From: Halorussus salinus
GTDB taxonomy: Archaea; Halobacteriota; Halobacteria; Halobacteriales; Haladaptataceae
Direction: 5' to 3'
Assembly (NCBI RefSeq): GCF_004765815.2
Contig: NZ_ML974127.1
Coordinates: 598,927 to 662,926 of the forward strand
DNA length: 64,000 nucleotides
Position 1 is the stretch's first letter. The number at the start of each line of letters is the position of its first letter. Shown here piece after piece: positions 24,609-60,306 of this stretch. The notes below the pieces were generated by a model. That model was not told where the DNA came from, made no database searches, and saw nothing but the letters and a program-made list of their open reading frames with translations. Made by a program: the position numbers and the translations under genes.

Positions 24609-24743
24609 GGGTTCTCCTCGGTCACGTCCGAGTCGTTACCCGGTGGTGACTCAAACGTTTCCGTCGAGTGTCTGACGCGCGTCTTGCGCTCGCCTCGACC
24701 ACCGACGGCGACGCTCGATGCCACGGGCTACCAGCAGAGGCCC

Positions 24744-24789
24744 GACGACACCGACCACCGACGAACACCTGACGACACCGACCACCGAC
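24744..24789 (+). repeat. 19-bp direct repeat, two copies 27 bp apart
   Basis: GACGACACCGACCACCGAC occurs at 24744 and again at 24771 in the gap upstream of the DUF457 gene. No coding sequence is seen around it. Confidence 0.6.
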
Positions 24790-24813
24790 AGATGGTCAGC
24801 GAAACCAGACATA

Positions 24814-24947
24814 GTTTGGGTGGACTGAAAGGGGCCGCGCGCTCGCGTCCACTTCAGTCGTCTCTGCGGGCAACTATCCCTGCGCCGGGCGGTGCGGAGA
24901 GGCGGAGGAATATCCCGCAGAGCGACCGCGAGCGCGCGGGGGCTTTC
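24814..24947 (+). ncRNA. Structured intergenic element family A, copy 1
   Basis: The element starts with GTTTGGGTGGACTGAAAGGG and ends GACCGCGAGCG...GGGGGCTTTC, as at 60096-60306. An outer stem pairs CCGCGCGCTCGCG (from 24834) with CGCGAGCGCGCGG (to 24941). An inner stem pairs CTCTGCGGG with CCCGCAGAG. The second copy has different bases in both arms but keeps the pairing. An RNA element is therefore likely; transcription is not shown. It lies between two minus-strand genes (DUF457 and CinA domain). Confidence 0.55.
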
Positions 24948-59984: not shown

Positions 59985-60095
59985 CGGCGGCGAGTAGCGG
60001 CGGCGACCGGACAGCGGTAGCTCGGTGACACGTTCCACCGGCAGACGCTCGACCGACTAACCGACAGCGCGAACGCTCGCCGCCGCAAACCGCCG

Positions 60096-60306
60096 GTTTG
60101 GGTGGACTGAAAGGGGCCGGTCACGCGAGCGAAGCGAGTGTGACCTCGGAAGTCGCAGCCCGCGCAGCGCAGCGAGCAGGACCGTCTTCCGGTGCCCGCT
60201 CGCGTTCATCTCGGCCGTCTGGCCGACCCCTATCCGAGACGAGCCGAGTGAAGCGAGGCGAGTCGCGGATATGTCGGCCAGTGACCGCGAGCGGGCGGGG
60301 GCTTTC
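60096..60306 (+). ncRNA. Structured intergenic element family A, copy 2
   Basis: Starts GTTTGGGTGGACTGAAAGGG and ends GACCGCGAGCG-GGCGGGGGCTTTC as at 24814-24947. An outer stem pairs GCCCGCTCGCG with CGCGAGCGGGC and an inner stem pairs CTGGCCGAC-CCTATCCG with CGGATATGTCGGCCAG. Stem bases differ from copy 1 in both arms, so pairing is kept. A hairpin-rich insert of about 75 bp separates the 5' box from the stem. Transcription is not shown. Confidence 0.55.

Follow-up and report, generated by a model that had tools for sequence, protein, structure and literature searches.

A widespread and apparently undescribed family of intergenic hairpin repeats in Halobacteria

The two copies in the window and their hairpin

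The stretch of DNA analysed here (the window, 64,000 nucleotides of a Halorussus salinus contig) carries two copies of a hairpin repeat, both on the + strand. Copy 1, of 134 nt, lies at 24814-24947, and copy 2, of 211 nt with an insert, at 60096-60306, where an earlier note made from the sequence alone had placed them. A 24-nt 5′ box, GTTTGGGTGGACTGAAAGGGGCCG, is exact in both copies, which also share the 3′ box GACCGCGAGCG...GGGGGCTTTC described in the note; the box 20-mer occurs twice in the window and in none of 100 shuffles. Both copies fold better than shuffled sequences, with z values of -3.0 (copy 1) and -2.7 (copy 2).

In copy 1 the conserved 5′ box GTTTGGGTGGACTGAAAGGGG (24814-24834), supported by a 48-copy alignment and by the 100-shuffle test, includes the 5′ arm of helix 1, GAAAG (24827-24831), whose partner lies at 24943-24947 and which is invariant in 48 of 48 copies. 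Helix 2, the outer stem, is formed by CCGCGCGCTCGCG (24835-24847), which pairs in full with CGCGAGCGCGCGG (24927-24939); in an alignment not fitted to structure, both sides have changed in 10 of its 13 pairs, and the helix is 98.7% paired. The inner stem, helices 3 and 4, has GTCG-T-CTCTGCGGG (24857-24870) as its 5′ arm and CCCGCAGAG-CGAC (24914-24926) as its 3′ arm. Specifically, CTCTGCGGG (24862-24870) pairs with 24914-24922 and GTCG with CGAC, both sides having changed in 7 of the 9 pairs of helix 4. Helix 5 and the apical hairpin (24875-24912) have a TAT/ATA foot and a variable, often palindromic tip. The conserved 3′ box GGGGGCTTTC (24938-24947) closes the copy, and paralogue alignments end sharply here, at +0 in most pairs.

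Copy 2 has its conserved 5′ box at 60096-60116 (shuffle test) and its 3′ box GGGGGCTTTC at 60297-60306. Its arms are of other sequence and are also complementary, as the note had seen. The extra hairpin-rich insert noticed in this copy is a nested hairpin module of a second family, GTCACGCGAGCGAAGCGAGTGTGACC...CGTCTTCCGGTG, about 75 nt long (approximately 60120-60194), which splits the outer 5′ arm. A covariance model built from 48 copies matches copy 1 with 124 bits (E 1.2e-24 in the whole genome, 2.3e-25 in an 864-kb sample) and copy 2 at 60191-60301 (E 1.5e-11). Two copies alone would be thin evidence. What makes the evidence decisive is that the same 4.75-Mb Halorussus genome holds 22 exact copies of the 16-nt box GGGTGGACTGAAAGGG and 51 matches to the model at E <= 0.001.

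The aligned copies, mostly 116-190 nt long, keep their purine-rich terminal boxes GGTGGACTGAAAGGGG ... GGGGCTTTC, and the intervening arms covary. No copy of this alignment departs from the others in helix 1 (GAAAG/CTTTC) or in the boxes, GGTGGACTGAAAGGGG included, an invariance that is partly by construction, as copies were gathered by the 5′ box and complete ones chosen via the 3′ box. The model matches, less bound by this selection, include other boxes, for example GGGTGGATGAAAGGGG at loci L180 and L188. In the plain MAFFT alignment, which is not structure-fitted, 97.5% of the cells of the five helices are paired, against 38-45% with slid partners; moreover, both partners have changed in 22 of 36 pairs, a number reached by 0 of 500 shuffles. 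Base pairs thus covary beyond the controls, as they do in structured non-coding RNAs. The hairpin is really maintained, and the proposal that compensatory change marks a selected RNA or hairpin structure finds strong support as regards the hairpin.

In Halorussus, degenerate repeats phased at 27 nt lie upstream of the hairpin, with GCTCG at -20, -47, -74 and -101 (99 copies) and a unit consensus near ACCACCGGCAGACGCTCGGTGACACGA. Zones of this kind precede copy 1 (24700-24813) and copy 2 (60001-60095), both with approximate limits. No clear internal covariation that would indicate dyad symmetry was seen within the 27-nt unit. The units occur only 5′ of copies, in numbers of 0 to 4 recognisable ones (for example L298 1440-1560). 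In paralogue alignments the 5′ boundary is stepwise and quantised by 27-nt units, and the end at the 3′ box is sharp.

Other repeats are found in and around the copies. The second small palindromic repeat, family B (GTCACGCGAGCGAAGCGAGTGTGACC + TCGGAAG...CGTCTTCCG), lies within the hairpin of several copies: at window positions 60120-60194 and at loci L220, L033, L047, L053, L035 and L081. Related nested modules sit at differing points in other copies, and at one orthologous locus L208 is without a related insert and L220 has one, with an apparent GCGG direct repeat. In another genus, relatives with the same terminal boxes and a different core, GAAGGCAGGCGAAGTAAGCAC...GGAGGGAGCGCGCAGCGAG, lie head to head with the hairpin family (L193, L195, L197). 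The 3′ arm and box (about GCGAGCGGGCGGGGGCTTTC) recur some 50 nt downstream of the 3′ box in L013, L127 and L298. A long (GACTCC)n-type tandem tract lies directly downstream of the copy in L122, and a shorter tract follows L004. A further intergenic repeat, CGCCTGCGGTCCTCGCTTCGCTGCGGTCCTCGTCCCTCGCGC..., is found beside or between copies at L115, L205/L209 and L202. Finally, the element at L067 (5245-5389) has as its 3′ arm the 5′ half of another copy in reverse complement, together with the loops, an arrangement which suggests fold-back template switching or copying, since this is what such an event would leave.

Distribution, genomic context and turnover of the family

The search of haloarchaeal genomes with a covariance model, proposed in the note as a check, returned matches in 79 of 145 genomes and 37 of 58 genera of an even sample of the class Halobacteria. 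Within Halorussus, contigs of H. litoreus, H. ruber, H. aquaticus, H. amylolyticus, H. salinisoli and H. halobius carry the family, and further copies were found on named contigs of Haloarcula and of one MAG. Plasmid records extend it to Haladaptatus, Salinibaculum and Halorientalis; plasmid pNG500 of Haloarcula marismortui ATCC 43049 carries one copy, and so does a plasmid of Haloarcula hispanica N601. The two Halorussus chromosomes sampled (the window plus evenly spaced 20-kb samples, 864 kb) hold about 25 copies, that is, roughly one per 34 kb overall and about one per 30-50 kb of sampled sequence in the two chromosomes. The number of exact-box copies ranges from 0 to 33 across the genus, and in the own genome the repeats lie mainly on contigs C1-C4.

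Searches of Rfam 15 at gathering and at permissive thresholds gave no match in the window, and the sole match among 11 copy-bearing loci was one sub-threshold mir-760. No exact box match was obtained in IMG/VR, nor any phage match. In open-access papers, queries by sequence strings and keywords retrieved no description of the repeat family, and two surveys of REP sequences (PMC12306157, PMC3733652) contain no word starting with ‘Halo’. The family is real, widespread and apparently undescribed.

All copies of the unbiased sample (25 of 25) are intergenic, in sequence that is 80% coding according to a codon-usage gene caller, and they occupy all four gene-orientation contexts. The same holds for the position of the 109 copies of the collected set, all of them intergenic, whose neighbours are oriented ++ in 40 cases, -- in 23, +- in 22 and -+ in 18. 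On plasmids, 21 of the 22 best places have no listed gene beneath them in a gene table that is itself incomplete. A fixed gene-linked element, such as a terminator, a leader or a 3′ UTR, is ruled out by the occurrence of all gene orientations. On C1, the orientation of copies about the presumed oriC1 shows a trend with a p of 0.03 for a split chosen after the data had been seen; GC skew was uninformative.

The positions of the repeat are not stable. Depending on the Halorussus species, the sites orthologous to those of the two window copies hold a repeat, a truncated one or none, and two genomes of about 95% identity (G004 and G014) have six insertion sites in common and several unshared. At the non-shared sites of this pair whole intergenic stretches are replaced, not simply closed. 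At one site of this pair (L202/L222), the partner retains the 5′ box and has lost the hairpin internally (L222). Among 116 five-prime boxes, 10 are not followed at the usual distance by any recognised 3′ box and represent truncated, shortened, point-mutated or rearranged copies; none of the 116 belongs to an autonomous copy carrying genes or other cargo. No clean target-site duplication was seen at empty and filled sites, where the intergenic sequence of the empty site is too diverged or replaced. For unshared copies, the model matches of the same genome include no near-identical sister (the best reach 72-87%) and so give no evidence of recent copy-and-paste. Judging from these comparisons, mobility of the repeat is plausible; other possible causes of the turnover are differential loss and exchange between strains.

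RNA or DNA hairpin

The earlier note had favoured a structured RNA. As a yardstick, the pairing statistics of the repeat were compared with those of the SRP RNA, a genuine long hairpin RNA, at 27 loci of related genomes. G-U accounts for 1.4% of paired cells in the repeat and for 10.5% in SRP RNA. Of the pair exchanges, 42% in the repeat and 17% in SRP RNA are flips (C-G/G-C or A-U/U-A); all these counts come from related sequences, are not independent, and set paralogues of the repeat against orthologues of SRP RNA. Among the variable pairs of own-genome copies G-U falls to 0.3%, and the regular G-U wobble of RNA-like pairing is not observed. Given the low G-U and the frequent flips, the stems are therefore kept as strict Watson-Crick pairs, which change largely by swapping and not by wobble steps.

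The few mismatches are not symmetric. On the + strand G-U exceeds A-C by 24:4, and on the model-fitted alignment by 44:18. This asymmetry points to a requirement for folding on one particular strand, which fits single-stranded DNA or RNA, and it speaks against a purely symmetric cruciform.

It is because of this 24:4 excess that RNA stays alive as a rival. In this alternative, the repeat would be a multi-copy structured non-coding RNA, either an sRNA or a processed transcript, bound at its strictly paired hairpin by an RNA-binding protein and transcribed from nearby promoters or by read-through. The very strong covariation and the conservation of an unpaired 5′ box over long range across the class agree with it, along with the greater tolerance of the + strand for G-U than for A-C. 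Several observations are difficult to accommodate, however: the G-U frequency is one seventh of that of SRP RNA in related genomes, and the dominant flips need a non-pairing intermediate. The AT profile upstream of the copies is flat (0.30-0.42), and no AT-rich promoter zone or TATA-like peak was found at a fixed distance upstream of them. In addition, all gene orientations are occupied, copy number and position vary greatly among sister species, foreign insertions are tolerated in the hairpin arms, and Rfam holds no match. We regard a multi-copy RNA as possible but rather unlikely, and prefer a strand-specific hairpin repeat in the DNA. Of the earlier proposal of a likely structured RNA, the maintained structure stands; the RNA itself is not established, in view of the wobble and flip frequencies, the missing promoter zone, the unconstrained orientation and the polymorphism between species.

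A DNA-level reading and its relation to known repeats

The reading that we prefer, at slightly better than even confidence, is that of a haloarchaeal hairpin repeat, non-coding and dispersed between genes, which acts at the DNA level and resembles REP/BIME sequences or PATEs in behaviour while belonging to neither family as defined. It rests on the 51 own-genome copies, the presence in 37 of 58 genera, the controlled covariation, the low G-U and the flips; on intergenic positions in all orientations and on sites that are filled, truncated or empty; and on the sharp 3′ and quantised 5′ boundaries, the flat AT profile and the fold-back at L067. Mechanistically, a host or element protein would read the unpaired 5′ box together with the foot of the hairpin on one DNA strand, and the 27-nt units could be docking sites of this putative reader. 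Repeats would spread and turn over by processes acting on single-stranded DNA, and their arms may be kept perfect partly by hairpin-templated copying. Against this reading, a mobilising protein, a cargo-bearing copy (among the 116 boxes) and a clean target-site duplication were not found; the unshared copies lack a near-identical sister, the excess of G-U over A-C is expected of RNA as well as of single-stranded DNA, and the orientation with respect to the presumed origin is suggestive only (p 0.03, with a post hoc split).

A different DNA-level explanation invokes a fixed protein-binding site of a nucleoid, topoisomerase or segregation factor, to be compared with E. coli BIMEs and gyrase, which would be kept for chromosome function and not by selfish spread. 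The spacing of about one copy per 34 kb in the sample, the conserved boxes, the absence of near-identical copies and the orientation trend about the presumed oriC1 on C1 (p 0.03) would suit such a site, but a range of 0 to 33 exact-box copies within one genus and the turnover of sites between genomes of 95% identity are not what an essential architectural site would show. We consider it improbable.

Even less probable is that the repeat is a PATE, in other words a non-autonomous derivative of IS200/IS605 (TnpA/TnpB), or the guide-RNA end of a TnpB element. The repeat is palindromic, transposase-free and haloarchaeal, and has a second small repeat inside its palindrome, as SMR-A does in Haloquadratum PATEs (PMC3119063). 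Nevertheless, neither box is present at the 24 TnpB and 5 Y1-transposase (PF01797) match loci of the own genome, searched over flanks of 1.5 kb or as far as the contig extends, and neither the hairpin nor the terminus of the TnpB 3′ ends is that of the repeat. The TnpB genes, moreover, cluster on contig C8, whereas the repeats lie mainly on C1-C4. IS605/TnpB ends, PATEs and TnpB guide-RNA ends are accordingly ruled out in the own genome. Terminal inverted repeats in common with a transposon, as in classical MITEs, were not found either: the only such pair is GAAAG/CTTTC, whose 5′ half lies inside the 5′ box. The earlier note had named transposon ends with transposase-bearing relatives as an outcome that would overturn its view; neither a box at the 29 loci nor a cargo-bearing relative among the 116 five-prime boxes was found. 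Finally, it is very improbable indeed that the covariation is purely a by-product of quasi-palindrome correction, by template switching in replication, on old and non-functional hairpins: near-perfect arms, C-G/G-C flips and the L067 fold-back chimera would follow from it, but class-wide conserved terminal boxes are inexplicable by correction, and a G-U:A-C asymmetry of 24:4 is unexpected if correction is symmetric.

Among known systems, the REP/BIME/REPIN sequences of bacteria, associated with RAYT transposases, are short, intergenic, present in dozens of copies and marked by a conserved unpaired tag at the foot of the hairpin. The present repeat shares these features, being a high-copy intergenic palindrome (51 copies; 25 of 25 intergenic) with occasional head-to-head pairs (for example L193, L195, L197 and L205/L209). 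It differs in being three to five times longer, with a nested multi-helix hairpin and attached 27-nt phased repeats, and in that none of the five PF01797 matches of the own genome, the candidates for a RAYT (Y1) flanked by copies, has a box within 1.5 kb. REP units are defined by GTAG or CGTC tags (PMC3733652); instead of a 20-40 nt unit so tagged, we find mostly 116-190 nt and the tag GGTGGACTGAAAGGGG.

PATEs, the palindrome-associated transposable elements of Haloquadratum walsbyi, likewise resemble the repeat in being haloarchaeal, transposase-free and palindromic, in having no obvious target duplication and in being targeted by a second small repeat, SMR-A, which inserts into their palindrome (PMC3119063). 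They possess, however, two near-terminal palindromes matching IS605-type ends, whereas the repeat forms a single nested hairpin that does not match the TnpB/TnpA ends of its own genome. The SMR-A small mobile repeats resemble the repeat in their length of about 110 bp and in their enigmatic mode of mobilisation (PMC3119063); their copies are highly alike and have terminal inverted repeats, whereas the present family combines strong divergence with conserved boxes. A closer analogue of SMR-A than the hairpin repeat is the nested module, family B.

BOX elements of Streptococcus pneumoniae are modular repeats with stable stem-loops. Although from another domain of life, they recall the repeat in organisation: in both, a hairpin module in intergenic DNA is combined with short repeats that vary in number. 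Integron attC sites are also alike in that their arms are conserved as a folded strand and not as sequence; the repeat, in contrast, has neither an integrase nor a cassette array.

A more specific form of the DNA-level reading, which we advance only tentatively, is that of an archaeal counterpart of REPINs and attC sites. In this case, one strand would form a strictly Watson-Crick hairpin, read by a putative haloarchaeal protein via the 5′ box and the 27-nt iterons, and the arms would be exchanged and re-perfected by hairpin-templated copying.

In conclusion, a repeat family occurs in more than half of the sampled Halobacteria genomes and yet is absent from Rfam and from the open-access papers searched. 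It offers a clean natural case in which covariation, normally read as a sign of a new RNA, comes with a near absence of wobble pairs, and it can thus serve as a test of how DNA hairpins may be distinguished from RNAs. With copies on plasmids of Haloarcula marismortui and Haloarcula hispanica, the question is testable in cultured strains. If the archaeal counterpart of REPINs and attC sites proved to be true, what is inherited in this family would be the structure and not the sequence.
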